DNA of 64,000 nucleotides from Anadara kagoshimensis (lineage: Eukaryota > Mollusca > Bivalvia > Arcoida > Arcidae): the NCBI GenBank assembly GCA_021292105.1, contig CM037874.1, positions 22,751,534 to 22,815,533 on the forward strand, in the 5' to 3' direction. Position numbers and translations under genes: made by a program. Below are positions 10,764 through 33,994 of the stretch, piece by piece. Under the pieces are notes generated by a model. It was not told the DNA's origin and ran no database searches. It worked only from the letters and a program-made list of their open reading frames with translations. Within the stretch, counting starts at the first letter, position 1. Every line of letters starts with the position of its first letter.

Positions 10764-10851
10764 CTAACGCTTTAAGAAAATCGTCAAAATTTTCACTTCT
10801 GTCTAATTTCCATTTTCCACCTACGAGTCGCTTTATCTCATCCAAAGCCAT
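10764..10851 (-). CDS. Orphan FABP first exon (phase-1 donor)
   Basis: An 88-nt coding exon, ATG at 10851, donor GTAAGTG. It encodes MALDEIKRLVGGKWKLDRSE followed by NFDDFLKAL plus one nucleotide. A GTTATATAA box at 10931-10939 sits about 80 bp upstream of the start codon. This is the leftmost, and so the most transcription-downstream, of the FABP first exons. If it belongs to a working gene, the next exon must lie left of position 1, requiring an intron of more than 10.7 kb that crosses the 1.34 kb tandem array. Confidence 0.86.
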
Positions 10852-10928
10852 TATTATTGTGACTAACGACTCATACACTGATGGTTGATATTAAATAATA
10901 CACGTGGTTAAATGTACACACACTATCT

Positions 10929-10941
10929 AATTATATAACGA
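10929..10941 (-). promoter_or_regulatory. TATA box of the 10.8 kb FABP first exon
   Basis: Minus-strand GTTATATAA, about 80 bp upstream of the ATG at 10851. Confidence 0.5.
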
Positions 10942-11284
10942 AACTCTATATGTACAGATGTTTCTCAGTTCATTCATAAATAAATGGATATCATGTTATG
11001 ATGAACAACTCGACACATTCGTTGACAAAATACCATGTCTCTGTCTCTGTTAGTCTTTGTTTTTAAAGAAATGTCAAAAGTCAGACTCGTTATCCTCTGT
11101 CGAAGCGAGCGACAAGGACGAATGTTCCCTGTGGCTACGTTAACACCTACATACATAGATCTTAAGAAACTCTAGGTTCACTTCCATATATTAATGCTAT
11201 CTGTCCGTATGAATCTATAAACACTTACATATTCATTAACTGATAATCTAAATAGACAACAGAGGCTAGAGGTTCTGTAAGAAG

Positions 11285-11690
11285 GCAGTTCTTATAACAA
11301 CAAGAGGTCATGAGTTCGAACCCTAAAATATGTTTACGTCTTTAACATCACACACACACACACACACACACACACTGGAGGTAAGAGGTTTTCTAAGACA
11401 AGCGGTCATGAGTTCGAACTCTAAACGATGTTTAACCCTTGCACTTTGCATACTGACTACAGCGTTAAAAGTCACTAAAAAGTAGACACTTTTTACAACA
11501 AGAGGCCATGAGTTCGAACCCTAAACGATGTCTCCATTTTTTACAGTAAGCACTTTATATAGAGAGAGCATAATACATGACGACTTCGATATCCTATGTC
11601 ATATCGGAATGGAACCAAAATATAAGACAGAGGTAAGATATTGGCAGTTATTATAACAAGCGCTCATGAGTTCGAACCCTACATTAAATG
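11285..11690. repeat. Four dispersed tandem copies with B-box-like motif
   Basis: CATGAGTTCGAACCCTA-type motifs occur near 11308, 11405, 11508 and 11667. Each is preceded by AACAAG / ACAAGCG and a GAGGT...TAAGA segment. A CA microsatellite (11348-11375) lies between the first two. Confidence 0.7.
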
Positions 11691-11734
11691 TACATACTGA
11701 TACTCGGCTGGTACAATATCAGATCAAGGCCTTT

Positions 11735-11825
11735 AATAAATTTTCACCAGAAAGTGAGTCCTGGTGTTCCGGAAATTTAACTTCCTGTATTGTTAGCTAC
11801 ATGCACACCCCACCGTGTACCCTAT
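11735..11825 (-). mobile_element. Retroelement tail fragment, diverged
   Basis: TTCACCAGAAAGTGAGTCCT with GGTGTTCCGGAAATTTAACT and TGTTAGCTACATGC resembles the middle of the tail. Confidence 0.5.
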
Positions 11826-12534
11826 TTTTAACCTACGCTAATAAAATTCAAACATGCTTCTCGCACACACTTGTTCACAGTTGTTATATATATATATATA
11901 TATATTTCAGATGGTTGTTAAAAAAATGCCACAATGCACCATCATCGTAGTAAACCTTTTTGATTTACAAAACCTCTGTTCCGTTCGAGTACTTCCAATC
12001 ACAACAATCGTAATAAAATAGTTTCATAGGCTGATGTTAGAATGTGGTTGTCACAAGAACATTCTCCGTATTTTACTGTAGTTCATTTTTCGAGTACTGA
12101 AACCACAAAACTTCCTTTTTAAAATAAGTGTCATGGGTTAAATTTAGGTACACTTTAAAATTGAGTGGAAACCGTTTTGTCTTGTATGAAAATGAATTGA
12201 TTGCGTTTAAAATTCATAACACATTTAATATACTTTGTTGACACAAACTGCACTGTGATAATGTGTTTAAGAATCTCAGTCCCGAGTTCAGGTACAATAA
12301 TGTCATTGTTAACCAGCCCTCCGTCAATTTTCCGACGTTTAAAATCTATAATTATCTAATGTTAAATAGATGAAAATCATGGGAGCTTTCTTTTACTAGT
12401 AAATAAAGAACTTAATCACGGGGAAGGTGAGAGGAAGGTAATGAAATTATAACAAGGTTATGGGAAGTGCATTTCTAGTCATACTAATAGCACTGCGGAC
12501 CTGTCGACAGTTTAACACTGAACTAACGAAAAAG

Positions 12535-12934
12535 TTGGTTGGTTGGTTGCTTGGTTGGTTGGTTGAATGTTGCTTAACGTCGCATCAGCAATGTATCAAC
12601 TATATTTGCGACGATAACTATTTTATTAATCTCTATGGATTAATCTTTGAACAAATTCGTGTATGCATGTGAAGTGCGAGTGTGTTTTATGGCCTGCCTT
12701 GTACTAGCGCGCATTCAGGGCGGCTGTAACGTGCTAGCTCACAGAGTCATTGTACCGCAGACAGGTGTAACACTCCTCCAGTCACATGATACTGATGCCA
12801 GGTGAACCAGTAAAGGCCAACGGCAAGGAAAATTGACTTCCCCACAAGTAGTCTCAGCGGGGCTCGAACTCACAGCGGTGAGAGATCCTGGATTTGTAGA
12901 CTAGCGTCCTATCCATTAGGCCACCACGGTCTCT
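12535..12934 (-). mobile_element. tRNA-derived SINE B copy with exact target-site duplication
   Basis: On the minus strand the head is a tRNA-like segment: A-box GTGGCCTAATGGATAGGACG, B-box GTGAGTTCGAGCC. The 3' end is a CCAACCAACC-type tail. It is flanked by an exact 13-bp duplication ACTAACGAAAAAG at 12522-12534 and 12935-12947, as expected for LINE-assisted retroposition. Confidence 0.88.
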
Positions 12935-12989
12935 ACTAACGAAAAAGAATCGAAATTAGCCTGTCGAGTGACTAAAATATGGATAGATA

Positions 12990-13163
12990 CAGTCCAACCT
13001 GTCTTCAAGGCCACCTCCATATAGGGCAGGTAGAAAGTTTTGATTCATATTATATGAATCTGTCTATAAATGCCACCTATGCCCTTAAAGGCCACTTTTA
13101 CTGGAATACTGAAATATGTATATATATATATACAACAACTTCTATAGACAGGTTCGACTGTAG
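12990..13163. mobile_element. Family-2 palindromic MITE
   Basis: Left end CAGTCCAACCTGTCTTCAAG and right end TATAGACAGGTTCGACTG are inverses of each other. The interior holds further AAAGGCCAC / TTTATA repeats. Confidence 0.78.
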
Positions 13164-13347
13164 TAGTAAAGAATGCCGAATGGTATTTATAAAAATAGTG
13201 TTAAACATTCGACAGGTCTGTGCTTCAGTTTCTTTTGAACGTGGCGGAAACCACGTATGTTTGATTTTTTTTCTTTTTCAATGTTACTCTGTTTTAGTTT
13301 TATTTAATAGTGTAATTTGTATCGTTTTTAGGGAAAGCTATCAAATA

Positions 13348-13635
13348 TAGTACACATCTGACCGAAGTTTCAAGCTAGGGCAACAAAAAGGAGTCGAAAC
13401 TACGCTGCCAAATGACCGAGATATGGATAGCCAGTGTCCGAGAAGCTGTCGAGAGATAGATAACAGCTGCCAAAAAGCTGCCGAGAAAATTAACATCTGC
13501 CAAAAAGCTGCCGAGAGATAGATAGCAACTTCCAAAAACCTATCGATATATAACAAACGAGAGATCAAAATGAGTTTCCAATTCGGTATCAATTCTTGAA
13601 TTTAGTGTTAAATTTTCGACAAGTCTGTACTGTAT
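13348..13635. mobile_element. Family-1 MITE, full length
   Basis: About 288 bp, from GTACACATCTGACCGAAGTT to TTCGACAAGTCTGTACTGTA. The interior has three or four GCTGCCGAGAGATAGATA-type repeats, the same module that is greatly expanded at 45.4-46.0 kb in inverse orientation. Confidence 0.82.
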
Positions 13636-13639
13636 ATTA

Positions 13640-14125
13640 ACCTTAAAATTTACCTCAATGCACTCTCGTTAAAGAAATTTCGTTAAGGATTATGTAATTA
13701 TAAATCACGTCTTTATTAAAATACATACAGTGAACATTATAATATTCTTATTCAATCAGCCTATTTTAAAAGTTATTTTCACATGTACTCACTTTTCTAG
13801 TTTATCACAGTTTATTATGTAAAAAAAAGCGGTTGTTTTAAATTTATACGGTATTTTCCATTTAATAATTTATGATATCTTTGAAATTCATATAAGTTTG
13901 CTAGATACTTCAGTGAAGATGATGACTGTTATCATTTCAACTTTTCTAACCTCCATTGCAATTTGTTATCTCCCTTGCAATTTGTTATCTCCCTTGCAAG
14001 ATGATTTAAAGGTAGAGAACATCAACTCAAATATAAAGCAGTATCGATATCCAAAAATTAAATACACTATCATCATGTTTACGGAACAGCTACCAATTGA
14101 ATAGCAAACGAAGGATTTCAACATA
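13640..14125. other. No gene recognised
   Basis: Unique AT-rich sequence. A 19-bp unit TTGCAATTTGTTATCTCCC is duplicated near 13957-13996. Confidence 0.55.
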
Positions 14126-14127
14126 AA

Positions 14128-14226
14128 TTTAAAAACAAACATACTAGCCCATGTCCGAATCACAATTCAGAAGAAAAGTAAAAACTTAAAAACTGACAAG
14201 TTAGGCATCCTACAGGGAAGTGAGGT
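14128..14226 (-). mobile_element. Retroelement 3' tail copy
   Basis: AAAAACAAACATACTAGCCC, ATGTCCGAATCACAATTCAG, then a short remnant TACAGGGAAGTGAGG. Confidence 0.75.
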
Positions 14227-15014
14227 CTACATCAACAAATGGGATATAGGCAATGGTCATTAATTAACATAGACCAGTTGACAAATACAAACATCGAACT
14301 AGTATTAAAATGTCTTTAATGGAAACATTTACAAAGAACATCTATACAAGACATTTCAACCATCTTACATCAAATAGTAGACTTCCTTCAGAGATAAGCT
14401 TGTACAATATTACCTTATTGTTTTATTATAAATATATCCTCTATTAATGGTTGTTTTTAGTTTAAATTTCAAGCTATATGACAACGTATTTTACTTCAAT
14501 ATTTAAGTTCTTTTCTCTACAGACATGGGACGATGTATGTTTGTGATGGAGTCATTTAAGTATATAATGCATAGTGTGATTTAAGCTGCAAAATCATACT
14601 AAGTTATACAAAATGTCAGATCTGTTCCCTGTCACTGAAGATTCTGTGTTGACAGTTAAAGTCGTAATGTTATATTATTTACATATTTGATTGCTTTACC
14701 TTATAATTGATGCAGGTGTACTTACAATCCAAAATTAATAAGAATCACGTTCTTCAAAACAACGGAAGAAATATTTCTATTAAAAGGTTGTCACAATGGC
14801 AATTTAGCGCTTTGTTTCAGAAATTTCATCAGGAAATATTCACGTCTTACAATTGCAATTCAATTGTGCAAACAACAAATAGAACTTATAACCTACCCCC
14901 TATTTGTGTTTTTCATAATTTGTTATTGAGAAGTATGATGTCTCTGTATCCAAAATTATCATGGCTATATTAGACCTCCCATAATGTCATATTTGTTTTC
15001 TCTGAATTTTGGTT

Positions 15015-15152
15015 ACACATGTGTCGCTAGCTAAACAGGAAGCAATCGTCTAGCTTCCTAGTCGAATTGCATGTGTTGCAAGGTTTGAAATTTTTAACTT
15101 TGTTTTTGAGATTGTTATTTTGACATTGACTGGTATGTTTATTTTTGATTAA
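15015..15152 (+). mobile_element. Retroelement 3' tail copy adjoining the RT relic
   Basis: CGCTAGCTAAACAGGAAGCA through TGACTGGTATGTTTATTTTT. It faces away from the minus-strand RT relic at 15.2-16.6 kb, so the two are separate insertions. Confidence 0.65.
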
Positions 15153-15274
15153 TAAAAGTATAAATTAAAGAACCTGATTGAGGCTAAATGTATGATAAAC
15201 CTTTTTTGAATAAAACTGAAGATTGCCCTTTTGGGACTTTGTTTTGGAATTGTTGTTAAAGGTAGTACATTTAG

Positions 15275-15330
15275 AAGAACTTACGGAGCGAGTACTCTAC
15301 CAACGGAGCTACCACAGTGGTTTCTATCAA
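15275..15330 (-). mobile_element. SINE A head fragment
   Basis: The minus-strand reading CCACTGTGGTAGCTCCGTTG then GTAGAGTACTCGCTCCGTAA matches the A-box end of SINE A. The rest is absent. Confidence 0.55.
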
Positions 15331-16090
15331 TGTATGGATGTTTCTGTAGCTTAGTAACCCCATACAAATAGGACAAGTATAGTTCTTCCTCTCATGACTT
15401 CATACCTAAAGACACACGGGCTCCTCTTTCTATGGAAGTACTCTTTGATAAAACTTAGGTCTAGTATTTGTTAGATTCTCTGATATACTATCCAAACCAA
15501 TCCCTCCAGATAGAATCTCTTGCAAACAGGATTAACCTTGTTGGAAGCGTTATCCGAATGCTCAGATCTTACTTTAGGTTAATCAGTGAGATTGTAGTCC
15601 TTGAGTCCTTAAATAGATATAGTACTCATAGGACCTTTAGGTTTGAAAATCAATCATTTAATAAAAGTCATATCTACCTTTATCCAGTATAAGATATTAC
15701 ACTCAGCTCCACAAAGAATTTTGACAACCGTCTATCAAGCTCTTCAACAGAATCGTTAATATTTCTGAGCCTACTTGTACTGTATTAGTAGTCATTATAA
15801 TTGAGTGTTCTCAATTATATTTAGATCGCCATTCACCAATTTTGTCATATAGCTTCAAATGTATCATTCAAGGTTGAATTCATAATTGATGTTAATTCCC
15901 AACTATGAAGCAGAACTTGCAGATCCATTCGTTCTTTTTATTCAAAGCTCACTAGGATAGATAACATATACATAGCCTCCAAATGATTATGATTATTAAG
16001 AAATAGAAAATCGTTTATGTATCTGTATTTGGAGTTGAATGCTTTAGCGACAGTCTACTCGCCAGATTTTACAAAGTTTTGAATAATTTC

Positions 16091-16577
16091 TGCTTCATAC
16101 AAGTAAAGAAAAGAAAAGAAACAAATCAGAAAGCACCGTTTGATACAAGGCTGATAGTTAGAACATTGTAATTACCATCAACAACAAATATGTTCGGTAT
16201 CAAATACTCCAACATATTGTTGATGGTACTAGTATCCTAAACGTGAATCTATATTGTGCTTGGCAAAATTACCAGAATCCCTATCCAGTACTAGATACTT
16301 TTATATGGAATTAACAATGAAATAATGAAAAGACAATAGTTTATTTTAGATGTTCTTTCAATTTAGAATTAGGGATAGTGATGTAAAATGTAGAAAAATC
16401 AAAAGTCTTTAAACTTTTTTACAGATTGCTTCATACAAGTAAAGAAAAGAAAAGAAACAAATCAGAAAGCACCGTTTGATACAAGGCTGATAGTTAGAAC
16501 ATTGTATTACCATTCACAACAAATATGTTCGGTATCAAATACTCCAACATATTGTTGATGGTACTAGTATCCTAAAC
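16091..16577. repeat. Near-identical 151-bp direct repeat
   Basis: Copies 16091-16242 and 16427-16577 (TGCTTCATACAAGTAAAGAA ... GTACTAGTATCCTAAAC) differ by only a few bases and are separated by about 185 bp. The duplicated segment is part of the RT relic. Confidence 0.9.
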
Positions 16578-16713
16578 ATTTATGGACAGGTGGCTTTTAT
16601 ATACAGGGTCAAATAATATGAATACAGAACAATTGGGATACAATTTTACTGGCCTTTATAAGCATGCAGGTGACCCTTATATAGAGATGGTCTTTAAGAC
16701 AGGCTGGACCGTG
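16577..16713. mobile_element. Family-2 MITE, degraded
   Basis: TGGACAGGTGGCTTTTATAT, then CTGGCCTTTATAAGC and the end AAGACAGGCTGGACCGTG. It lies directly against the second copy of the 151-bp direct repeat. Confidence 0.6.
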
Positions 16714-16714
16714 T

Positions 16715-18584
16715 TTTAAATCATGTCGTCACAAAATGTTATACAAACTATTTGAATGATATTTCAAATGTCTGTTTACATTCACATTATTTCAACCAAT
16801 CAGAATTGTAATGAATAGTTTTTGGAGTGACAACAATTTATAAATATATGACATTACATATGACCACAATAAATTACCACCTACAAATAATTATAATTAT
16901 GTTTAAAGTGTCATGAATATCCGACAGTACGCAGTCAATGAAAAATGCTAATTAGCATTTAATACCTTCTTTTATTGTTTTTAAATACCCTTTAGCTTTT
17001 ATGGATGGGTTCCTATGACCTAACACTGTGTGGCCAGCCAAAGTTAAAGTTGACATTAAAGTTAGTAAAATTAATTACATCTACTTCCCGTAAAGTAGCA
17101 CTACCATTTCAACATACTGTTACAGTTATTCCAAATTTTATCTAAAATGTTAATTGTTGTGGATTGTGACAGAAATATAACCAAAAATAGCTATTTAAAA
17201 AAAACAAATTATCTTCTTTATTATCTGTAAAATTATTTTCTAGTTCAGTTATTTATCATAAATATAAAGCCCTAGATACTTTTTTTTTTTAAATGCATTT
17301 ATTCCTGTGTTACATTATGAATTTATTAACGTTTTTTGTAAAATTATGTTTTCTTATATTTCTTGAACCATGAATTTAAAATCAACATTATTTTTTAATT
17401 GAATACATGAATTCTCACATTCAAAAAATTGAGAAAAGTTATTACCCCTTGAAATCAATTATTTTATTAACTGATAATCTTTAATTTTTATCAAACCATA
17501 CGCTTATGTTATACATACCGGTCCATATTAATATCACAATCCAAAACTCGTGGACTTCCGCAAGGCAAGAGAGACCGGGCGCTCCGAAAGGGCAAGCACC
17601 TCATGTTATGACTAGCGTCCCTTATTTGAAAGATGATATTAAAATGATATTATAAACAAATAGTTGTACATTTATACGCAAACCAATTGTAGCGATTGTA
17701 GTTGGCTAATAATTTCAACTGTAAGTAATTAATCAATTTTTTTAAAATTAACAAGCTATTTTATATGTTTGTCACTTATATAATCTTAACTTATAACAAT
17801 TAGATACTTTTTTCCTGTATGAGGGTTCAGATATATACAAATAAACAATATGCATTGTATCGAGGTTAGTTTAAAGTTAGTGCTGTACCAAGCAAACATA
17901 CTATAATAATTTTTTTCAATTTTTTTAAAAAGTTTTTTCGGAATAAGTGCTTGAATGACCATGTCCAATTTCACAAATTTCTTCTTGATTAAGATTTCGA
18001 ATGACAAAAAAGATTCAGAACATCGTCGATCTGTAATATATTCAGAAGTTTAATGTTTCATTTTGAAGATCATTTGATGCTTGTGAAATTTCTACTCTAT
18101 TTGTAGACATTTTTCATTTGCATTACCATACATATTGTTAAAACTGTTTCACCATTTTAAATAACTACGATGTAATAAACTTTACGAGGATAATATGCAT
18201 ATGTTACTTTACTACAAATAAAATACTAGAATACTGATGTTACAAGCATGGATTATATTAGCGATAAAATGTTCTGCTTACTAATTTTTCTTTTAAAATA
18301 CGAAGCTTACTCAAAATATTGAATGAAACTGGTCCCCAGTACACGTAAACTTTGTGACTCTATCCCGTAAGATGAACATGTGCCGGTACACAAAAACTTC
18401 CAGTGATTTTTAAACTAAACAAGACTTTTTAAAGAAAACATTCAACCGAATAAGCATCTTGATTCATGATTTAATAATTATGCAACATTGTACGGTCTAA
18501 ACAATAACTTTTTTCATAACCATGAAAAATCACATTAACTAAGTATGTAAACCGTTGATAGATATTAACTTTACGATCACTTAC
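16715..18584. other. No gene recognised
   Basis: Very AT-rich intergenic or intronic sequence with only a retroelement tail fragment near 17.5 kb. Confidence 0.55.
17530..17612 (-). mobile_element. Retroelement tail fragment
   Basis: AATCCAAAACTCGTGGACTT, then GAGACCGGGCGCTCCGAAAG and GGCAAGCACCTCATG. Confidence 0.6.
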
Positions 18585-18672
18585 CTATTTCTTTTAAAAA
18601 GTCATCAAAATTTTCACTTCTATCTAATTTCCATTTACCTCCTAATTGCGACTCCACGTCGGCTATTGCCAT
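18585..18672 (-). CDS. Orphan FABP first exon (phase-1 donor)
   Basis: An 88-nt coding exon, ATG at 18672, donor GTAAGTG. It encodes MAIADVESQLGGKWKLDRSE followed by NFDDFLKEI plus one nucleotide, in the iLBP signature pattern. A TTTATAAAG box lies at 18746-18755 and a CCAAT motif at about 18777-18785, in the same order and spacing as in the 22.6 kb module. No matching exon 2, 3 or 4 was found to its left in the window. Encoded region: strand A and most of helix I of the FABP portal. Confidence 0.86.
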
Positions 18673-18744
18673 ATTTCATTATAACAACAAAACACGATTA
18701 AGTATTACACAAAATATGAATATCAACAACTTTGTATTCTGAGT

Positions 18745-18786
18745 TCTTTATAAACATAATGTTATGTTACAAAATAACCAATAGGA
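18745..18786 (-). promoter_or_regulatory. TATA and CCAAT block of the 18.6 kb FABP first exon
   Basis: Minus-strand TTTATAAAG at 18746-18755, with plus-strand AACCAATAG at about 18777-18785. Same layout as at 22.7 kb, including the intervening AACATAA-like sequence. Confidence 0.55.
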
Positions 18787-18935
18787 TAGTCCGAAATTCC
18801 AAGATTAGCATCATAATATACTCCCTGGCTATAGTTATACAATAAGACTTAGTATAAAATCCATAAATTCATAAATGAAACTGTTAGTATTTGTCTTTGG
18901 CATCATGAACGGATAAGAGCATCACTCTTAAACGT

Positions 18936-19000
18936 TTTGGATTTTTTATTTATTTTTATTTATTTTTTTATTTTTTTATTTTTTTTTTTTTTTTTTTTTT
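18936..19000. repeat. T-rich tract
   Basis: TTTATTTTT repeats ending in a long poly-T. Other poly-T runs are at about 9769-9803 and 47789-47815. Confidence 0.9.
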
Positions 19001-19006
19001 GCATTT

Positions 19007-19115
19007 TAAATAAAAACAAACATACTAATCCATGTCCGAATCACCAATCCAGAAGCAAAGTAAAAACTTTGAAACTGACAAGTTAGGTAAGACACGTGAA
19101 CTTCCACCAGGGAAG
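19007..19115 (-). mobile_element. Retroelement 3' tail copy
   Basis: AAAAACAAACATACTAATCC to GTGAACTTCCACCAGGGAAG, with the rest truncated. It follows a poly-T rich tract (18936-19000). Confidence 0.8.
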
Positions 19116-19374
19116 TAAAACAGAGGATCTGTAATTGTAGAAGTGTTAATACCGTTAACTCTTCCATAAGAGGACTTTAGTCACTTTATACAACGATGCA
19201 TGCTGCTTACACATAAACTGTTGATCCAGACATATTTCAAATTCAGGTTTATTAAGGCCCTAAAAAGTTTTATAGCCGTCATATTATTTATAATATTATG
19301 TACCTTGTAGAAAATGATCCTGGATATATTTGACGTATAAAAGCCCCAAACACCGTACAATATATTTAGCGTAA

Positions 19375-19512
19375 GAGGAGCTTACCCTTCCGGAGCTAAA
19401 AGTCTCAATTCCCGATGAGAGTTCACGAAGTTAACCTAATTAGCCAGTTTCAAAAACTTTCTTTAGTTTTGGATTGTAATTTGACATGGATTGGTATGTT
19501 TGTTTTTTATTT
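19375..19512 (+). mobile_element. Retroelement 3' tail copy
   Basis: GAGCTTACCCTTCCGGAGCT, then GTTAACCTAATTAGCCAGTT and ACATGGATTGGTATGTTTG. Confidence 0.72.
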
Positions 19513-19764
19513 CAACGCAGTTTTGTAATACAACATTGTTTACCCAATCAATTGAAGTTATTAGAATATTGATAGAGATTTCTGATTCTGTATTCCAAAA
19601 AATAATATTGATGAGTTGTTTTTAGTAATAGGTTAGATCAATTTACACGTGCCCCATTTTGTATTTTTCGCATAATTGACATTCCGTAAGCGAAAATTGC
19701 CCTAAGAATACTCCTATATATTATGCAGATCACATATTGTGAATGCAATACTTGTAGTCTCTTA

Positions 19765-19992
19765 TTATCAGGATTGCCCTGGTTATGTTTGACGTTCCAT
19801 AGTCCCATGTTTCTTCCACTCAATTTTGATCGCACATGTGGCGGGTGTATCTTGGTACACAGGAACTGCTTGCCCTTCCGGAGAACCTAACCTCACTTTC
19901 CTGGTGAAAGTTCACTTGTCAGTTTCAAAGGTTTAACTTTTCTTCTTGATAATGATTCGGGCATTGATAAGTATGCTTGTTTTTTTTTTATT
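19765..19992 (+). mobile_element. Retroelement 3' tail copy with the end of the coding region
   Basis: Contains CAGGATTGCCCTGGTTATGT and TTGACGTTCCATAGTCCC, the plus-strand equivalent of the coding end seen at 42.2 kb. The tail follows to GATAAGTATGCTTG. Confidence 0.78.
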
Positions 19993-19994
19993 AA

Positions 19995-22025
19995 AACAAG
20001 GCTTTGTGTATTTTTACAATTTTAAAAACTGTTGATTATTTCACTTTTATTACCATTATTGTATAACCCAATGTTGATGCTTCAAAAATACAATGCATAA
20101 CAAAAATGAAAATCTCAAATCTTTAACATCAGGACCCTTTTTGCCTACGGCTGGTCATATATCAATAAAAACAATAATCATACAGACTTATATGAATAAT
20201 ATATTAAATGATAAATATATTTGCATTGGGCCTTGTCTGTCCTTTTCCATTTCCAAGAAAAATTAATTAAGACAATATTGAACAATTGTCTTTATTTATA
20301 CATCATACTTATATAATGATTTCCAAATCTGGAAGCATAGATAATGTAATATTCCTAACAAAGGTAAAGCGTAAGTAGAGTTGATAGAAAGAAAGACCAC
20401 TCCTATGTTCCAGAGTGAGAACATGCAACTATTGGTAATGTAAATAATTTGTTGGACGATCAATTTGAATGATATTGATAATTTATTTGTCATTAGTGGA
20501 AACTATATTTACTCAGTCAATGGAGTTTATTGTATAATAGGCATCATTTGAATAGTGAATGCAAGTCGGTATTATATAATGTAACGAATGTTATTCGGAA
20601 TCACAGTCATATGTCATTCACAAAAATTAATGAAGTTGGTTTCTCTGAAATTTAAAAAAAACCTTCAGCTATTAACATCTGAATACGAATAAGACGAATG
20701 CAAATTAAAGAGAGTTTACAAAAGAAAAACAAATTGAGTCCTAGCCAGCTCATCTGATAGCTTCGTCTATTCCATAAATTAGAGTTCTAGGTTTCTTAAT
20801 ATCCATTAGACATTTCTTAAAGCTTGAAATAAAGTAAAGTTTAGCTAAACATATGGTTGTACGTTGCAATAGGCAGTGCGGGCATCTCAAACATGTCAGA
20901 GAAAAACGAACGCAAGGAATAAACAAGACATGAAAGAGTATATATTGTCTTAGAAAATAAGTAAATTATTTGTAAATGAGAAATTTTTTTTAGCAATTAA
21001 CAAAACAGTCTCAGACACACACTAAACATAGAAGCAAGCATAAAACCCAAACATGTTAAAAAGCGAAACGAAAAAGCAAATAGCGTATGAAACCTGTTTA
21101 AAAATTATTTCAATTATTTTTATTGGTCACATTCTGGTATTTTTTCACGAAAAAAACTTTTGATGCCATTTGTTATAATTGTTATATATAAACATGTGTA
21201 TTATTTTTCTTACACATAAGGATTGCCAAACCTTTGTTAATTAATGAAAATATTAAAAAAATAAATTGATTTGTAAAACAATGTTTTTCTTTTTGTTATG
21301 TAAAAAAGAAAAAGAAAATAATAGTGCATTCGTTTATAAAAACATAAAACGTGTATATTAGACCTGTGTTCGATTTTCTATGGAATGCTTGTTTAGTTAC
21401 ATTTAGATTGGTGTGGTGACCAGTAATAAATCCCAATTAAATAGATTATGTATTAACAATAACAACCCGATGATAATGCAAAATGTTTGATATTATTGGT
21501 ATCTTGAAAATAAAGCGTGAAACTTTGCCAATGTTTACATTCACATTGCATTGTGATTTGAATATGAACTGTTATGATTTGTTTTATTAAAAGTCTTAGA
21601 TTTAAACCATCTATCTTTAAACGGTTTCCTCTTAAGACACTTTTTTTTATCTAGGAATAACACATAAATTATTTTACAACTGCATTTCACATGGTGTCAA
21701 AGGCAGCTTTATGTTCTCATGCACTTGAACTCTAAATTGATATACCAGATTACAACCCACGTCGATAAAAGCGCTATATCTCCTTATATGTTTTTGATCC
21801 ATATGTAGCCAATCAAAACAGTTTTACCTATAAAACGTTTTATTAACATTTCATTTTATTCTATTTTATTGTATAGGGAACCATATTTAAAATTTGATAA
21901 GTGTTTGTTCAAGCAATTGCTGTGTCTCTTAGCGCAAATTTGAAAAAAATAATGTTTCGTTTTAGATATGATCTCTTAAATGTAGCTTTGACATTGACAA
22001 TACCCAATAAATATGGCACAAAACT
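19995..22025. other. No gene recognised
   Basis: AT-rich sequence between orphan FABP first exons. I searched it for FABP exon 2-4 motifs on both strands and saw none. Confidence 0.55.
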
Positions 22026-22030
22026 TAAAA

Positions 22031-22563: not shown

Positions 22564-22651
22564 CTATTTCTTTTAAAAATTCATCAAAATTTTCACTTCT
22601 TTCTAGTTTCCATTTACCTCCTATTTGTGTCTGCACATCTGTGTTCGCCAT
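22564..22651 (-). CDS. Orphan FABP first exon (phase-1 donor)
   Basis: An 88-nt coding exon, ATG at 22651, donor GTGAGT. It encodes MANTDVQTQIGGKWKLERSE followed by NFDEFLKEI and one extra nucleotide. It is very similar to the exon at 18585-18672, and upstream sequence is shared too: TATA-like AT-rich boxes at about 22734-22765 and a CCAAT motif at about 22783-22791. That makes it a duplicated promoter-plus-exon module. An intact reading frame, start codon and splice donor argue against old pseudogene decay. No exon 2-4 partner was seen downstream (leftward) within the window. Confidence 0.85.
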
Positions 22652-22731: not shown

Positions 22732-22792
22732 AATATCTATATATACTTAGTTCTTAATAAATATGATTTTATGTTGCCAATTAACCAATAGT
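22732..22792 (-). promoter_or_regulatory. TATA and CCAAT block of the 22.6 kb FABP first exon
   Basis: Two AT-rich TATA candidates (minus-strand GTATATATAG and TATTTATTAAG) and a CCAAT box on the plus strand at about 22783-22791. The block aligns with the one upstream of the 18.6 kb exon. Confidence 0.5.
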
Positions 22793-22799
22793 AAGCTCC

Positions 22800-24345: not shown

Positions 24346-24349
24346 TATA

Positions 24350-24580
24350 CGTCTCTGTGTCCTGGATTGCCCTGGATATATTTGACGTCCCATAGTTCCT
24401 TTCACACAATTTTGATTACCCACGTGGCGGGTGAAGCTAGCTAAACAGGAGGTGTTTTAAGTTTCCCGAGCACCCGGCCTCACTTGTAAGTTCACGTGTC
24501 TAACCTGAATTGTCAGTTCCAAAGTTTTTACTTTGTTTCTGGACTGTGATTCGGACATGGATTAGTATGTTTGTTTTTTT
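24350..24580 (+). mobile_element. Retroelement 3' tail copy with the end of the coding region
   Basis: GATTGCCCTGGATATATTTG then ACGTCCCATAGTTCC, CACGTGGCGGGTGAAGC, CCCGAGCACCCGGCCTCAC and the tail end ATGGATTAGTATGTTTG. Confidence 0.82.
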
Positions 24581-25113
24581 ATTATTACTAATACATAAAT
24601 ACTATATAAATTCTATGATAAATCTGTGATTTATTATTTCAGTTTTACTCAGGTTAATAATATATTATAATACTTTGTAAAATCTGTTTCGTTGAGATGT
24701 AAAATTGCGTGTCAGGGTGCCCACGAAAATACAAAAAATTAGGACAACTTAAGTAGTAATAAAGAGTATACAGTTATTGTATGTGTTTGTATTAGGCAAT
24801 AGATTAAGACATTTACCGACGGTTATATAAACCTGTTACCGTTTGTGATACTAATGTTTATTCAATTAGAGACTTACTCGAGAGTGTTTTAGTAATACAT
24901 GGATTTTCTTGTCAGTAGTTTATTACATTGCTGTAAGTATTTGATTCTATATGATAATATAATGCTATGAAAGGGGCGAGGCGTCAAGTCACTTGTAGCT
25001 AGACACTTGTTTGAGTTTTATTAAAAATTCACCATGACTTACGAGATTAATAACTCCAATCAAACCGGAGATTACAGTTTTTATCAGATTTTATATAGTA
25101 TGACATATGATAA

Positions 25114-25390
25114 GTCAAATACAGATACATCAATCCATGTGTCCAACTCACAATGCAAAAGCAAAGAAAAAACTAACATATCAATCCATATCCAAATCAT
25201 AATCCAAAAGCAACGAAAAAACAAATATACCAAATCCATGTCCAAATCACAATCCAAAAGCAAATTGTAAACTACAAATAAGTTTAAACACATGAAGATT
25301 CAATGTGTACTTTTATCGGGGAAGTGGGGACGGATGCTCCTGAAGCGTAAGCACCTCTTGTTTAGTTAAACCCCCCCCCACGTTTGTGAT
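25114..25390 (-). mobile_element. Retroelement 3' tail with a triplicated end
   Basis: The terminal ~45 bp (ATCAATCCATGTCC...CAAAAGC) occurs three times in a row between 25114 and 25266. The rest of the tail follows, including CGGATGCTCCTGAAGCG. Confidence 0.75.
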
Positions 25391-25844
25391 CAAAATTGAA
25401 AATGATAGCAATCGTTATTTGTGTTGATCAGACAAATACTAAGTATATACTATATAGCTGAAAATTTCTTTACGTAAACAAACGACAAAAATTGCATGTT
25501 TTATGTATGAATTGAGTTCATAACTCCTCTTTCACAATCAAAGAAATTTCTTTTAACTCTCCATCACAACACTGTTTTATTAAAATAAACAAAACAAAAC
25601 AGCTATGAGCAACAGATATATAAAATGTAGTACTTTAAAGTTTTTTCCGCGTGCGATAAAATTTCGCGAGTACAAAACATTCGCGCACTTGTTTTTGAAA
25701 ATATGCTAAATATTCTGCTAAAGTCCATATCGCAAAAGTGAATAATCGCGAAATCACTTTGAATAGAGAAAAGCAAAAGTGAAATATCCGCGAATAAAAG
25801 TTTAAGTTATAGTTAAGGTCCATCATATCCGTTGACAGACAAAT

Positions 25845-25965
25845 TAGAAACAAGCATACCTATCAATGTCTAAACTAAAATCTCAAAGCAAAGTTAAAAC
25901 GTTCACCAGGGAAGTGTGACCGGGTGCTCCGGAAGTGCGGTAGCTACATCCGCCACTTGTGTAAC
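25845..25965 (-). mobile_element. Retroelement 3' tail copy
   Basis: AAACAAGCATACCTATCAAT, then CACCAGGGAAGTGTGACCGG and GTGCTCCGGAAGTGCGGTAG. It ends about 75 bp before the 38-bp satellite begins. Confidence 0.72.
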
Positions 25966-26038
25966 TATTAACATGAAACTGACTTGTCATTTATGATCAA
26001 CTATTGATAATTGATAATACTAGTACTTATCCCTGGAG

Positions 26039-29000
26039 CACATATAACTTGTATCAATGAGGTGTTAGTTAAGGCAGATATATAACTTGTATCAATGAGG
26101 TGTTAGTTAAGGCAGATATATAACTTGTATCAATGAGGTGTTAGATTAGACAGACATATAACTTGTATCAATGAGGTGTTAGTTAAGGCAGATATATAAC
26201 TTGTATCAATGAGGTGTTAGTTAAGGCAGATATATAACTTGTATCAATGAGGGGTTAGTTAAGGCAGACATATAACTTGTATCAATGAGGTGTTAGTTAA
26301 GGCAGATATATAACTTGTATCAATGAGGTGTTAGTTAAGGCAGATATATAACTTGTATCAATGAGGGGTTAGTTAAGGCAGATATATAACTTGTATCAAT
26401 GAGGGGTTAGTTAAGGTAGATATATAACTTGTATCAATGAGGTGTTAGTTAAGGCAGACATATAACTTGTATCAATGAGGTGTTAGTTAAGGCAGATATA
26501 TAACTTGTATCAATGAGGTGTTAGTTAAGGCAGATATATAACTTGTATCAATGAGGTGTTAGTTAAGGCAGATATATAACTTGTATCAATGAGGTGTTAG
26601 ATAAGACAGACATATAACTTGTATCAATGAGGTGTTAGTTAAGGCAGATATATAACTTGTATCAATGAGGTGTTAGTTAAGGCAGATATATAACTTGTAT
26701 CAATGAGGGGTTAGTTAAGGCAGACATATAACTTGTATCAATGAGGTGTTAGTTAAGGCAGATATATAACTTGTATCAATGAGGTGTTAGTTAAGGCAGA
26801 TATATAACTTGTATCAATGAGGTGTTAGTTAAGGCAGATATATAACTTGTATCAATGAGGGGTTAGTTAAGGCAGATATATAACTTGTATCAATGAGGGG
26901 TTAGTTAAGGTAGATATATAACTTGTATCAATGAGGTGTTAGTTAAGGCAGACATATAACTTGTATCAATGAGGTGTTAGTTAAGGCAGATATATAACTT
27001 GTATCAATGAGGTGTTAGTTAAGGCAGATATATAACTTGTATCAATGAGGGGTTAGTTCAGGCAGATATAAAACTTGTATCAATGAGGGGTTAGTTCAGG
27101 CAGATATATAACTTGTATCAATGAGGTGTTAGTTAAGGCAGATATATAACTTGTATCAATGAGGTGTTAGTTAAGGCAGATATATAACTTGTATCAATGA
27201 GGTGTTAGTTAAGGCAGATATATAACTTGTATCAATGAGGTGTTAGTTAAGGCAGATATATAACTTGTATCAATGAGGTGTTAGTTAAGGCAGACATATA
27301 ACTTGTATCAATGAGGTGACAGTTAAGGCAGACATATAACTTGTATCAATGAGGTGTTAGTTAAGGCAGATATATAACTTGTATCAATGAGGTGTTAGTT
27401 AAGGCAGATATATAACTGGTATCAATTAGGTGTTAGTTAAGGCAGATATATAACTTGTATCAATGAGGTGTTAGTTAAGGCAGACATATAACTTGTATCA
27501 ATGAGGTGTTAGTTAAGGTAGATATATAACTTGTATCAATGAGGTGTTAGTTAAGGCAGATATATAACTTGTATCAATGAGGTGTTAGTTAAGGCAGATA
27601 TATAACTTGTATCAATGAGGTGACAGTTAAGGCAGATATATAACTTGTATCAATGAGGTGACAGTTAAGGCAGACATATAACTTGTATCAATGAGGTGAC
27701 AGTTAAGGCAGACATATAACTTGTATCAATGAGGTGTTAGTTAAGGCAGATATATAAGTTGTATCAATGAGGTGTTAGTTAAGGTAGATATATAACTTGT
27801 ATCAATGAGGTGTTAGTTAAGGCAGATATATAACTTGTATCAATGAGGTGTTAGTTAAGGCAGATATATAACTGGTATCAATGAGGTGTTAGTTAAGGCA
27901 GATATATAACTGGTATCAATGAGGTGTTAGTTAAGGCAGATATATAACTGGTATCAATGAGGTGTTAGTTAAGGCAGATATATAACTGGTATCAATGAGG
28001 TGTTAGTTAAGGCAGATATATAACTGGTATCAATGAGGTGTTAGTTAAGGCAGATATATAACTTGTATCAATGAGGTGTTAGTTAAGGCAGATATATAAC
28101 TTGTATCAATGAGGTGTTAGTTAAGGCAGATATATAACTTGTATCAATGAGGTGTTAGTTAAGGCAGATATATAACTTGTATCAATGAGGTGTTAGTTAA
28201 GGCAGATATATAACTTGTATCAATGAGGTGTTAGTTAAGGCAGATATATAACTTGTATCAATGAGGTGTTAGTTAAGGCAGATATATAACTTGTATCAAT
28301 GAGGTGTTAGTTAAGGCAGATATATAACTTGTATCAATGAGGTGTTAGTTAAGGCAGATATATAACTTGTATCAATGAGGTGTTAGTTAAGGCAGATATA
28401 TAACTTGTATCAATGAGGTGTTAGTTAAGGCAGATATATAACTTGTATCAATGAGGTGTTAGTTAAGGCAGATATATAACTTGTATCAATGAGGGGTTAG
28501 TTAAGGCAGATATATAACTTGTATCAATGAGGGGTTAGTTAAGGCAGATATATAACTTGTATCAATGAGGGGTTAGTTAAGGCAGATATATAACTTGTAT
28601 CAATGAGGGGTTAGTTAAGGCAGATATATAACTTGTATAAATGAGGTGTTAGATAAGGCAGATATATAACTTGTATCAATGAGGGGTTAGTTAAGGCAGA
28701 TATATAACTTGTATCAATGAGGTGTTAGTTAAGGCAGACATATAACTTGTATCAATGAGGTGTTAGTTAAGGCAGATATATAACTTGTATCAATGTGGTG
28801 TTAGTTAAGGCAGATATATAACTTGTATCAATGAGGTGTTAGATAAGGCAGATATATAACTTGTATCAATGAGGTGTTAGATAAGGCAGATATATAACTG
28901 GTATCAATGAGGTGTTAGTTAAGGCAGACATATAACTGGTATCAATGAGGTGTTAGTTAAGGCAGACATATAACTTGTATCAATGAGGTGTTAGTTAAGG

Positions 29001-30445
29001 CAGACATATAACTTGTATCAATGAGGTGTTAGTTAAGGCAGAAATATAACTTGTATCAATGTGGTGTTAGTTAAGGCAGATATATAACTTGTATCAATGA
29101 GGTGTTAGTTAAGGCAGACATATAACTTGTATCAATGAGGTGTTAGTTAAGACAGACATATAACTTGTATCAATGAGGTGTTAGTTAAGGCAGACATATA
29201 ACTTGTATCAATGAGGTGTTAGTTAAGACAGACATATAACTTGTATCAATGAGGTGTTAGTTAAGGTAGACATATAACTTGTATCAATGAGGTGTTAGTT
29301 AAGGTAGACATATAACTTGTATCAATGAGGTGTTAGTTAAGGTAGACATATAACTTGTATCAATGAGGTGTTAGTTAAGGTAGACATATAACTTGTATCA
29401 ATGAGGTGTTAGTTAAGGCAGATATATAACTTGTATCAATGAGGTGTTAGTTAAGGCAGATATATAACTTGTATCAATGAGGTGTTAGTTAAGGCAGATA
29501 TATAACTTGTATCAATGAGGTGTTAGTTTAGGCATATATATAACTTGTATCAATGAGGTGTTAGTTAAGGCAGACATATAACTTGTATCAATGTGATGTT
29601 AGTTAAGGCAGATATATAACTTGTATCAATGAGATGTTAGTTAAGGCATATATATAACTTGTATCAATGAGGTGTTAGTTAAGGCAGATATATAACTTGT
29701 ATCAATGAGGTGTTAGTTAAGGCAGACATATAACTTGTATCAATGAGGTGACAGTTAAGGCAGATATATAACTTGTATCAATGTGGTGTTAGTTAAGGCA
29801 GATATATAACTTGTATCAATGAGGTGTTAGTTAAGGCAGACATATAACTTGTATCAATGAGGTGACAGTTAAGGCAGATATATAACTTGTATCAATGAGG
29901 TGTTAGTTAAGGCATACATATAACTTGTATCAATGAGATGTTAGTTAAGGCAGACATATAACTTGTATCAATGAGGTGTTAGTTAAGGCATACATATAAC
30001 TTGTATTAATGAGGTGTTAGTTAAGGCAGACATATAACTTTTATCAATGTGGTGACAGTTAAGGCAGATATATAACTTGTATCAATGAGGTGTTAGTTAA
30101 GACAGACATATAACTTGTATCAATGAGGTGACAGTTAAGGCAGATATATAACTTGTATCAATGAGGTGTTAGTTAAGGTAGATATATAGCTTGTATTAAT
30201 GAGGTGTTAGTTAAGACAGACATATAACTTGTATCAATGAGGTGACAGTTAAGGCAGATATATAACTTGTATCAATGAGGTGTTAGTTAAGGTAGATATA
30301 TAACTTGTATCAATGAGGTGTTAGTTAAGGCAGACATATAACTTGTATCAATGTGGTGTTAGTTAAGACAGAAATATAACTTGTATCAATGTGGTGTTAG
30401 TTAAGGAAGACATATAACTGGTATCAATGAGGTGTTAGTAAAGGC
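26039..30445. repeat. 38-bp satellite array, about 116 copies
   Basis: Uninterrupted tandem array with a period of 38 bp. The core is ATAACTTGTATCAATGAGGT followed by GTTAGTTAAGGCAGATAT. Variant units (GGGG for GGTG, GACAGTTAAG for GTTAGTTAAG, GACAGACATA, GGTAGATATA, ACTGGTATC) are not random: a run of about 12 variants from ~26145 is repeated from ~26599. All six frames contain stops, so it is not coding. It lies between the FABP first exons at 22.6 and 33.9 kb. Confidence 0.97.
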
Positions 30446-30607
30446 AAAAACGTGTTAATGAGATTAGGATTTTTAGAATTATTTGTAAATAACTAACAAT
30501 ACCACAAAAAGATAGTTTCATCTTATTATTCTTGTGTAATTTAATACTTAATTAGCTCGCGTTATCACGATAGTATGGACAGTGTGAATCAAGGTTAATT
30601 TTTTAAC

Positions 30608-30760
30608 CATTGCCTATAAGTTTTGTTCAGTCTATTTAGAAATAACTTGAAAGAAAACTGTGTACTTTGCATTAATCCTACGTAGCGGGTTTATGGAAAA
30701 AAGTACACAGTCTTCATTCAAGTCATTTCTCAATAGACTGAACCAAAACTAAAGGCAATG
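30608..30760. repeat. Long hairpin next to the satellite
   Basis: Arm 30608-30669 (CATTGCCTATAAGTTTTGTT ... GAAAACTGTGTAC) pairs with arm 30702-30760 (GTACACAGTCTTCATTCAAG ... CTAAAGGCAATG), about 60 bp at roughly 85-90% by eye, with a 32-bp loop. Confidence 0.82.
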
Positions 30761-31019
30761 CTTATGATTTAATTGCATAAATAAAGAGACCAAAGAACAA
30801 GGTACTATGCTAAAAGTTCAAAGAAATTGCTTCATTGTGAACAACAATGAAATGTACACAGGAAATCATAAAATAATCATAACTGTTTAGCCAATCAAAA
30901 TGTGTAAAAACGCAGTGGGCAAGTCCTGTTAAAAACATGTCGATAAGGAAATAACTAGCTTTTAGCAAATCAGAATGTGTGAAAATGGTAAAATTTAGTT
31001 ATTGTAAATTTTCCTTGAT

Positions 31020-31145
31020 TTCACCTACCTTTAGATTTCCAAACCTTATTGTTCAGTATACATTTTCATATCGAATTTAAAACTCTCTCAATTTAAACAG
31101 ATCACAAAATTCGTGTCAATATGGATTAGCATGTTTGGTTTTGAT
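31020..31145 (+). mobile_element. Retroelement tail fragment, diverged
   Basis: CACAAAATTCGTGTCAATAT then GGATTAGCATGTTTGGTTTT matches only the extreme end of the tail. Confidence 0.5.
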
Positions 31146-31399
31146 TTTTAAGGTAATACCTCAGTGTAAGATATTGTTAATTTGCATTTTCACACCGACT
31201 GATAACACTGGACAGAAGCAGATACGTCCCCACTCTACAGCTCTGAGGACTTTGGTGTGTTTGTAGTCACTAATCAAACTACCAATTCATGTCCAAATTA
31301 CAATCGTTAAGTCTTTTTCCATTTGTCCGAGGTGGATATAGCTAGGAGGTGCCATCGACAAAATGTTAGAATTTTTATAGACAACATATTGTAATATAA

Positions 31400-31700
31400 T
31401 TTTCAAACAAACCTATAAACCAATGGACACAATCTGTGTGTGCTGATTTGTACATTTTATTGTATGAAGCAAAATTTATGCAGAACCTTGTTAATCTGGA
31501 GAAAAGGCTCTCACTAAATCATTCAACTCTGCATACAGATATACAGAAGACGTTGTCCTACATTTGTCATATATCATGCTTCATATTTGTAATTATACCT
31601 CCAATACGACGCCCATGAAATACTACAATTGCAGCTGCATAACAAACGTGATTTCTATGGTCAACTTCCCTTATCTATGCAGCAATATACCTGCTCTTCT
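31400..31700 (+). pseudogene. Second reverse-transcriptase relic
   Basis: CADLYILLYEAKFMQNL near 31437-31490 is the same pre-palm segment as in the 15-16 kb relic. KRDFY lies at about 31644-31658 and VNFPYLCSNIPA at 31660-31695, which match the segment normally downstream of the YIDD motif. The palm motif itself is lost, so the fragment has an internal deletion and frame changes. Confidence 0.65.
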
Positions 31701-32089
31701 GATTATGGTGCATTTTATTTACAGTTAATAGAAACTGTTATAGTAGAGCTTGTTCGCACAATGGGAATAAAGAGAAAAGATACTTACAAATAAACGGTTG
31801 ACACATGAATATTGCAACCCAAGACTTCTATTACATAAATATATATAAACGGAGCATGAACATGTGCAAGATATGTCTTTTCATGAAAGAATGAAGGGAA
31901 CAATACTATTCAATAGAAAAACGATCAGATATATTTTTGACTTCAAGTTTTAAAGAACTATCATCGAAAACAAGGTAATTAAAGCATTTTGATAAAAAAA
32001 AACACTTATAATTTTAATTTATATTTCTAATTGTCTTCCAGAGGACATCCTCTTGGATATTAGGCAGATGAAAGTTCCAATTGTTTGAC

Positions 32090-32265
32090 AATATGGCTTA
32101 AAACTAAACACACCATTTTATATTTGAATTACAACTCAAAAACAAGGTAAAAACTTTGTAAACTGGCAAATTAAGTTAAACGCGTGAAATAACACTGGAA
32201 TAGTAAGATTAAATGTTCCGGAAAGATAACCGGTTTAGCTAGCTGCGCCCCGTCACGTGTAAATT
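32090..32265 (-). mobile_element. Retroelement 3' tail copy
   Basis: AAACACACCATTTTATATTT, AACTGGCAAATTAAGTTAAA, CGCGTGAAAT, then TTAGCTAGCTGCGCCCCGTC. Confidence 0.65.
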
Positions 32266-33900
32266 CGAATTTAAAAATGATAAGTCTATGGAAAAGCTTA
32301 GAAATGTTAAATATATCTATACTTATGTACGAACAATACTAGTATTGTGTTGACGACAATTACTTTCTGGGGGTCAAGATAAGCTTAGACTTTCAATGAT
32401 TTATTTTTAAGCAGCTTGTTTTGTTTTTAATAGTTCCATTAGTGAGGAAAAGCTCTACTCTACCGTATCGGGTTATTTATGGTTAAATCTGTTTTAATTT
32501 TGCAGCAGAAGCCGTCCGTTTCGGAAGAGTTTCAAGTACAAATACAAGGAACATACAAGCATAAGAATAAACATCAGAACCGGATAGTGCATGTACAATG
32601 ATATTTCAAATAGATGAAAAACAATTAAAAGCATTCACTTTGCAACAATCAATGCAACAAGGAATAAGAAAAATAAAATTAAGAAACTACCAAAGAAATA
32701 CTGAAAATATATAGGAACACGAATTTGAAGAGGTTTGGTTGAATACATATCCTATTCAGTTGTTATCATCCTTAAGCGGGCGTTCAACCCATTTGTTAAG
32801 TCTATAGAAAAAGATTGATGATAAACCGCAAAATGTTCTACATTTGAAAAAATCTAGCTCATGACAAAGAAGGGTTTCTAATAAGATTTCATTCATTAAT
32901 TCCTAAGTGATTTAAGGTTGACCCATCATTTATTCCTTCCAAAGATAAAAATCAGATTGCAAAGAAAAATGTAAATAATATCGTAGGTTCCATAGGTAGG
33001 TCGTTCTTTTTATTTTATCCTGTATCATATTTAAAAAGTTTCTCAACATGAAGCATGGAATTTATTCACAACTTTGAGAACATGATAACAATAATAATAT
33101 GGGATGTGAATTTAATATACCAGGAAACAGTACAGAATTTGTAAGATGTTCCTTGTATTTCTTATATGATTCACCAAACGATGTTCAATTTAATGTAAAA
33201 ATTTAGAAGGTATAGGTAATTGTTACCATGGTTTTGTTTTGCTCTACTTTTCGACTACTTTAGTCAGTATATATTTTACTACAACCATGAACTGTGTTGC
33301 TTGACGTTACAAAATAATTTTAAATGCCATTCGTTTTAAATTGTTGAAATGTTCCAAAATGTACAGCACTACACACACACTACTAATACCGTTGGTTTTA
33401 TTTGAGGTGTTCATCAAAATGATCAATGCGGAATCTTTAACACGCATAAAAGTACTCAACAATGTTTTTCAATTTTTAAAATTTCTTTATCTTATTTTTA
33501 AATATCAATTATTTACTAACTTGAATTGTTAACATAAAACTAATTAAATAAATTCTAAAATGTATGAATGACTTTTCTAATTTATCTGTATTTCTTGAAA
33601 TTAAGTTAACAATTTTATTCGTTAACACTAAACCATTTACTAAACACATTTGTATATTATTATATTATTATTTATCATTATAATAATTGAAAATTTGTTG
33701 AAAACCAAGAAAACTAAATTCAATAGAGAGTATTACAGGTCAATGTAACCTGACTTACAAATTCTTGACCCTGCATTGATTTTTCGCTTTATTAGCATGT
33801 CTGAAATCTCAAAGGGAGTTCAAAATTAGTTTACGGGGACTGGGTCAATGCGATGTTATCTAATCTGCAATCATGTTAAGATGGTGTAAAAGAGAATAAC
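32266..33900. other. No gene recognised
   Basis: AT-rich sequence downstream of the 33.9 kb FABP exon. No exon 2-like sequence is visible. Confidence 0.55.
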
Positions 33901-33906
33901 ACTCAC

Positions 33907-33994
33907 CTAACTCTTCAAGAAAACTTTCAAAATTTTCACTTGTTTCTAGTTTCCATTCACCACAAAGTTTTGCTTCAATTTCGGATAGTGCCAT
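33907..33994 (-). CDS. Orphan FABP first exon (phase-1 donor)
   Basis: An 88-nt coding exon starting at ATG (33994) and ending at a GTGAGT donor. It encodes 29 codons plus one nucleotide. The peptide begins MALSEIEAKLCGEWKLETSE and continues NFESFLEEL, matching the iLBP N-terminal signature (G-x-W-x-L, four residues, N-F-[DE]). Length and phase match the other FABP first exons in the window. A TATTTATAAG box lies at about 34075-34086, some 80-90 bp upstream of the ATG. No FABP exon 2, 3 or 4 was found between here and position 1. This is the most divergent of the five first exons, with Cys-Gly-Glu before the Trp instead of Gly-Gly-Lys. It may be an alternative first exon of a gene to the left or a relic of a partial duplication. 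Confidence 0.85.

Follow-up and report, generated by a model that had tools for sequence, protein, structure and literature searches.

A predicted array of four alternative first exons sharing one set of constant exons in an intracellular lipid-binding protein gene of the bivalve Anadara kagoshimensis

Our analysis of 64,000 nucleotides of Anadara kagoshimensis (the window; assembly GCA_021292105.1, contig CM037874.1, here C18:22,751,534-22,815,533, in a genome of 1.115 Gb and 36 contigs) predicted, with a probability of about 0.8, one FABP/CRABP-type intracellular lipid-binding protein (iLBP) gene in which a variable-first-exon array of four promoter-led exons, named a to d, feeds constant exons 2-4. 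Each of the four coding first exons would have its own proximal promoter and would be spliced, one at a time and over introns of 41-64 kb, to the constant exons, yielding four proteins of 141 aa. The array appears to be real and is probably functional, while promoter activity, the actual junctions and functional differences of the isoforms are what we infer from the sequence. The choice of promoter would set the place and time of gene activity together with the N-terminal helix and, for exon d, the charge of helix I. The array probably originated by serial duplication of promoter plus exon 1. An earlier note on this DNA had offered such serial partial duplication as a competing reading; it is better taken as the likely origin of the array than as a rival to it.

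For the search of exons, 80 kb of left flank and 50 kb of right flank were added to the window, giving 194 kb with 0 N. Exon profile hidden Markov models were built from 49 sequences, namely 46 of 67 homologous proteins (130-146 aa), the two neighbouring iLBP genes, A and B, and isoform a, and exons b, c and d were left out of the exon-1 profile. The profiles were run on six-frame translations of the 194 kb with stops read through, and the reversed sequence served as control. The four minus-strand FABP/iLBP first exons of 88 nt described in the earlier note are all present where it placed them, each with an ATG, an open frame and a phase-1 GT donor (Table 1). They lie in tandem over 23 kb and are similar, equal in length and in the same frame, as expected for variable first exons. 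Their scores against the exon-1 profile were 41-58 bits, and the next match in the 194 kb or in the reversed control reached about 4 bits. Phase 1 is common to all six first exons of the region (five directly, that of gene A via its translation). The claim that no FABP exon 2, 3 or 4 lies between or to the left of the four first exons within the window also held up: left of 44.7 kb in the window, exons 2-4 were not found by tblastn with 29 homologues (best 30 places), by tblastn with the exons of gene B, or by the exon profiles (top 12 per exon). A possible degenerate exon-2 relic at 31126-31043, a weak tblastn match (E 0.26) with two internal stops, was rejected, as it did not rank within the best 12 hits of the exon-2 profile. 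Between first exons d and b, in what would be intronic sequence, lies a satellite array with a 38-bp unit, approximately 116 copies and 96% matches (26042-30446).

The earlier note had predicted shared exons 2-4 left of position 1. By tblastn and by the profiles, one set was found there, at a distance of 41 kb from the nearest first exon (a); its exons are in the right order, in phase and on the strand of the array. The note had proposed extending the assembly to the left and looking for a 173-nt exon 2; the extension contained one FABP exon 2, which has 170 nt, 173 nt being the length of exon 2 in gene B. Joined to the shared exons, each of a-d gives 426 nt and 141 aa without a premature stop, with matching phases and AG/GT sites, and the four predicted proteins differ only in residues 1-29. 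The gene would accordingly comprise four exons (88/170/114/54 coding nt) and three introns, with splice sites placed from sequence. In the 194 kb, the profiles detected six first exons (41-61 bits), three exon 2s (74-91 bits), three exon 3s (57-63 bits) and three exon 4s (28-35 bits), and matches beyond these did not exceed 4.1 bits in the real sequence or 5.8 bits in the reversed control. The exons of gene A, gene B and isoform a match the profiles partly by construction, because they were included in building them. The 6:3:3:3 count therefore resolves into 1:1:1:1 for gene A, 1:1:1:1 for gene B and 4:1:1:1 for the gene studied here.

When the whole genome was searched with the isoform a protein, all 33 first-look candidates were scored, and 31 matches had E values of up to 10. 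Only two exon 2s had 95-97% identity, one per copy of a cluster that is assembled twice (see below), and the other exon-2-type matches in the genome had at most 41% identity, including those of genes A and B of both copies. The constant set found is single, downstream and on the same strand as the first exons, and genome-wide only the second copy has a close set. Had every first exon had exons 2-4 of its own, the idea of shared exons would have been contradicted; no such sets were found in the 194 kb or in the whole-genome search with isoform a. This exclusion of hidden exon sets is good but not absolute, because the first look of the search was loose. Membership of the family is indicated by an orthologue (P0031), which scored 51.6 bits as lipocalin/cytosolic FABP in Pfam; gene B also passes (PF00061, 52 bits, cut-off 23). 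Against solved structures, the best match of isoform a was FABP isoform B (E 2e-22) and that of isoform d was CRABP-II (E 6e-20), and the ten-stranded barrel with a helix-turn-helix lid of the FABP/CRABP family was recovered.

The first exons look maintained rather than dead, judging from their substitution pattern. Each of the four has preserved its ATG, reading frame, length and core motif as well as a good donor, and the ratio of nonsynonymous to synonymous differences per site (pN/pS) over the whole exon was below 1 in all six pairs (a/c 0.26, b/c 0.29, a/d 0.39, a/b 0.44, c/d 0.45, and b/d 0.54). One-sided Fisher tests on rounded counts gave p values of 4e-5 (a/c), 0.018 (b/c), 0.006 (a/d), 0.020 (a/b), 0.034 (c/d), and 0.084 (b/d), that is, below 0.05 in five of six pairs, which are non-independent as they share branches. 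Residues 1-10 alone had pN/pS of 0.29-1.16 and residues 11-29 of 0.08-0.90, each with few sites. We also simulated neutral change by letting each present exon mutate free of selection. With 0.25 substitutions per site, which is roughly half of the b/c synonymous distance (0.49), one exon stayed intact in 8-9% of cases and all four in approximately 6e-5; at 0.1 substitutions per site, all four stayed intact in 0.012. These results bear on the alternative that only exon a, the one nearest to the shared exons, is real and that b, c and d are remnants of partial duplication without function, since exons decaying neutrally would probably not have stayed intact over the divergence observed. We regard this alternative as unlikely. 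It draws some strength from exon d, the most divergent of the four (41 bits, pN/pS up to 0.54), and from the comparison with other species, where exon a alone has a spliced model.

The 67 homologous proteins compared came from a collection clustered at 90% identity, of which only representatives were available, and isoforms could therefore hide in the clusters. The nearest named proteins to gene B and to the shared gene exons are P0002 and P0021 of the ark clam Tegillarca granosa. The latter, a partial model (KUTeg_009794), has a counterpart of exon a (28 of 29 aa) joined to counterparts of shared exons 2-3. The best matches of the other first exons were 29/29 for b (P0056), 22/29 for c and 19/29 for d. 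In P0056, exon b is followed by intron sequence that differs from copy 1 of the cluster in 5 of 35 codons plus an indel and from copy 2 in 8 of 35 codons, with 0 of 29 differences in exon b itself. We had considered P0056 as clear cross-species conservation of exon b and dropped this view, as the close match of the intron leaves a near relative or a divergent allele possible. An exon that is identical while its intron differs speaks against b being a leftover, and P0056 is weak support for exon b. Furthermore, exons of apparently adjacent iLBP genes are fused in two models, P0002 of T. granosa and P0030 of Crassostrea virginica. P0030 combines an iLBP of the upstream type with the orthologue of shared exons 2-4, which suggests that the gene order is old.

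Judged from anatomy, a separate promoter for each first exon is likely. The earlier note had reported a TATA box about 75-100 bp upstream of all four exons. This was borne out by TATAWA matches for a, c and b (-86, -80, and -94), but exon d has only TATAAG (-76). Among random 80-bp windows of this AT-rich DNA, 19% had a strict (TATAWA) match and 24% a loose one, the loose pattern having been picked after exon d was seen. In the tested range, a match was present for gene B and none for gene A. Because of this background and the lack of a match in gene A, the TATA boxes are only suggestive. Exons b and c are 72% identical over 239 bp (-140 to +96 of b), promoter region included.

The cluster is assembled a second time at C18:12.03-12.14 Mb with the same exon order, so that two copies of at least 155 kb lie on one chromosome, around C18 12.02-12.18 and 22.70-22.86 Mb. 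In seven pieces compared between the copies, the best aligned stretches were 97.8-99.6% identical; five of the seven aligned over about their full length, and the pieces around exon 3 and exon 4 aligned over 445 of 601 and 400 of 701 bases. The coding sequence differed at 1 of 690 nt, a silent third-position change in exon a, which is also the one difference in the 352 nt of the four first exons. Further pieces near -51 to -48 kb, -44 to -42 kb (approximately 1,950 of 3,001 bases) and +100.7 to +104.7 kb matched at 97.4-97.7%, and a 4-kb piece expected near -68 kb had no match in the second copy except a repeat-like stretch of 146 bases. The second copy fits either an uncollapsed second haplotype or a recent duplication. 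Apart from these pieces, C18:22671534-22674033 is part of a repeat of high copy number, whose many copies across the genome are about 94% identical (among 40 scored of 18,844 candidates); an inverted match also lies within it.

The assembly is also relevant to the possibility that each of a-d belongs to a four-exon gene of its own, with exons 2-4 lost or, in the assembly, collapsed. Genes A and B are complete four-exon genes, and tandem whole-gene duplication therefore occurs here; likewise, the cluster having been assembled twice means that haplotype handling may be imperfect. Nevertheless, both assembled copies have the same exons in the same order, no relics of exons 2-4 were found between the first exons with stops read through (top 12 per exon), the genome-wide search with isoform a did not reveal, at any other site, an orphan exon 2 set closely resembling the shared one, and the 194 kb contain no N. 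We therefore consider such a loss or collapse very improbable. It is scarcely credible that read-through or trans-splicing also links the array exons to exons of neighbouring genes, which would mean that the array does not belong to one gene. All six first exons are indeed in phase 1, and the fused models of T. granosa (P0002) and C. virginica (P0030) combine exons of adjacent genes. However, exons 2-4 of genes A and B are upstream of the array and unreachable in cis, annotation error is the simplest explanation of the fused models, and the shared set lies downstream of all four first exons in the right order.

Several observations weigh against a single gene with four alternative first exons. 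The gene is small, and introns of 41-64 kb would be long for it. The junction of exon a in T. granosa is an annotator's gene model, not a read, and none of the 67 homologous proteins is a spliced product linking b, c or d to the shared exons. P0056 is genomic or unspliced, because its reading continues into the intron after exon b. In residues 1-10 alone, pN/pS of a/b reaches up to 1.16. The TATA matches are near the AT-rich background rate, with a loose pattern chosen post hoc from d; outside b/c, no common promoter region aligned at matched offsets, and other flanking matches sit at unmatched offsets and look like repeats. A common promoter motif was not significant, as the 20 shared 9-mers (one mismatch allowed) were equalled by 4 of 60 random sets. 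Finally, the second copy of the cluster is not fully independent support, because it may be the other haplotype.

According to the earlier note, the isoforms would differ in strand A and helix I, the lipid-portal region. The variation instead falls mostly in residues 3-10, which form an N-terminal helix in a structural model of an orthologue; strand A and helix I are mostly conserved among a, b and c, and in exon d helix I varies as well. The 29-aa exon-1 peptide carries a net charge of 0 in a, -2 in b, -3 in c and -6 in d. The nuclear signal of FABP4 consists of K21 at the end of helix 1 and R30 and K31 in helix 2 (PMC4540411, in part). Aligned with CRABP-II, ungapped here, K27, R36 and K37 of isoform a fall on chain residues 20, 29 and 30, and the spacing of nine between residues 27 and 36 equals that of FABP4. 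R36 and K37 are encoded by shared exon 2, and residue 27, which the first exon encodes, is K in all isoforms but d, where it is E. E/R/K is the pattern of FABP2, and the triad is perhaps not the sole feature that matters (PMC5399370, in part). We tentatively hypothesize, with considerable doubt, that promoter choice might switch between import-competent and import-incompetent carriers with differing membrane contact.

Insect UGT genes have several first exons with common later exons, and an architecture of this kind is probably not unknown in invertebrates. In vertebrates, UGT1, GCNT2, UGT2A and the clustered protocadherins have tandem, similar first exons of near-equal length and the same frame together with one constant 3' set, as predicted here, and their variable exons arose by duplication, like those of the proposed array (PMC1885805, in part). 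The organisations of UGT1, GCNT2 and UGT2A have been called vertebrate-specific in the same source. Unlike those clusters, in which the variable exon encodes a whole domain, the variable exon here has 88 nt and encodes 29 residues, and the gene is that of a cytosolic mollusc lipid carrier with predicted promoters and junctions.

Exon sharing in the iLBP family is not new, because it has already been reported in C. gigas, where duplicated exons of iLBP genes share other exons, with transcript evidence, CgiLBP4 and CgiLBP1A being exon-sharing members (PMC5399370, in part). Those cases are of an alternative exon 3 or of exon mixing between recent duplicates, and the sections of that source used here describe no first-exon array feeding a single constant set. 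Splicing also gives iLBP diversity in invertebrate FABP genes, as we propose for this gene, and the types given in the available part of PMC3796463 are exon skipping, intron retention and spliced-leader trans-splicing, not first-exon arrays; the mollusc Lottia gigantea is tabulated there as 'No' for alternative splicing of FABP. More generally, invertebrate iLBP diversity has been credited to gene duplication and some splicing (PMC3796463 and PMC5399370, both in part). Bivalve CRABP2-like (P0034-P0036, P0038, and P0039) and CRABP1-like (P0042 and P0045) proteins are 59-74% identical to isoform a, with the exon 1/2 boundary included, and five of these seven, each a single representative protein, are named 'isoform X1' or 'X2'. 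Among the matches listed in the open-access literature, no case of alternative first exons in a mollusc iLBP gene was found.

If true, our prediction would represent a UGT1-like solution in a mollusc lipid-carrier gene and would mean that organisms other than vertebrates, and genes whose variable exon is very short, can evolve this architecture. Isoforms that differ in 29 residues only, the nuclear-import position included, would allow the roles of the iLBP N-terminal helix and helix I to be tested. Furthermore, annotation can split or fuse such genes, as one partial and two fused models in T. granosa and C. virginica illustrate.

Table 1 Features of the predicted gene and its neighbourhood in window coordinates, in which 0 is the base left of position 1 and negative values lie in the left flank
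Feature	Position	Strand	Details
First exon d (predicted)	33907..33994	-	MALSEIEAKLCGEWKLETSENFESFLEEL+G; phase 1; donor GTGAGT; 41 bits; intron to shared exon 2 64.4 kb
First exon b (predicted)	22564..22651	-	MANTDVQTQIGGKWKLERSENFDEFLKEI+G; phase 1; donor GTGAGT; 49 bits; intron 53.1 kb
First exon c (predicted)	18585..18672	-	MAIADVESQLGGKWKLDRSENFDDFLKEI+G; phase 1; donor GTAAGT; 54 bits; intron 49.1 kb
First exon a (predicted)	10764..10851	-	MALDEIKRLVGGKWKLDRSENFDDFLKAL+G; phase 1; donor GTAAGT; 58 bits; intron 41.3 kb
Presumed common intron 1, part in the window	1..10763	-	leads to shared exons outside the window
Shared exon 2 (predicted)	-30676..-30507	-	C18:22720857-22721026; 170 nt; 91 bits
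Shared exon 3 (predicted)	-33111..-32998	-	C18:22718422-22718535; 114 nt; 63 bits
Shared exon 4 with stop (predicted)	-39198..-39145	-	C18:22712335-22712388; 54 nt; 28 bits
TATA-like TATATAA	10931..10937	-	starts 86 bp upstream of exon a ATG
TATA-like TATAAA	18747..18752	-	starts 80 bp upstream of exon c ATG
TATA-like TATATATA	22738..22745	-	starts 94 bp upstream of exon b ATG
Weak TATA-like TATAAG	34065..34070	-	starts 76 bp upstream of exon d ATG
Gene B, complete iLBP gene	44791..49137	-	coding exons 49056-49137, 46855-47027, 46078-46194, 44791-44847
Gene A, iLBP, part in the window	57065..64000	-	exons 2-4 near 61148-60975, 59940-59824, 57115-57065

The complete gene at 44.8-49.1 kb (gene B) does lie upstream of all four first exons, as the earlier note had argued in excluding cis splicing to its exons. 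Besides this gene, which was the one named in that note, a second iLBP gene (A) is present, with exon 1 at 64485-64572, just beyond the window; because both genes are upstream of the array, exons 2-4 of either are out of its reach in cis. Intron 3 of gene B contains a minisatellite with periods of 33, 59 and 92 bp (45439-45978). No Rfam family passed its gathering cut-off anywhere in the window. Between genes A and B, the opposite strand carries two stretches of an NNMT/PNMT/TEMT-family methyltransferase (PF01234) at 53102-53263 and 54179-54664 on the plus strand, with 36 and 68 bits, respectively. Near the left end of the window (approximately 900-3950), a 31-bp doublet plus GT tracts repeats three times with a spacing of about 1.35 kb, which suggests a tandem triplication.

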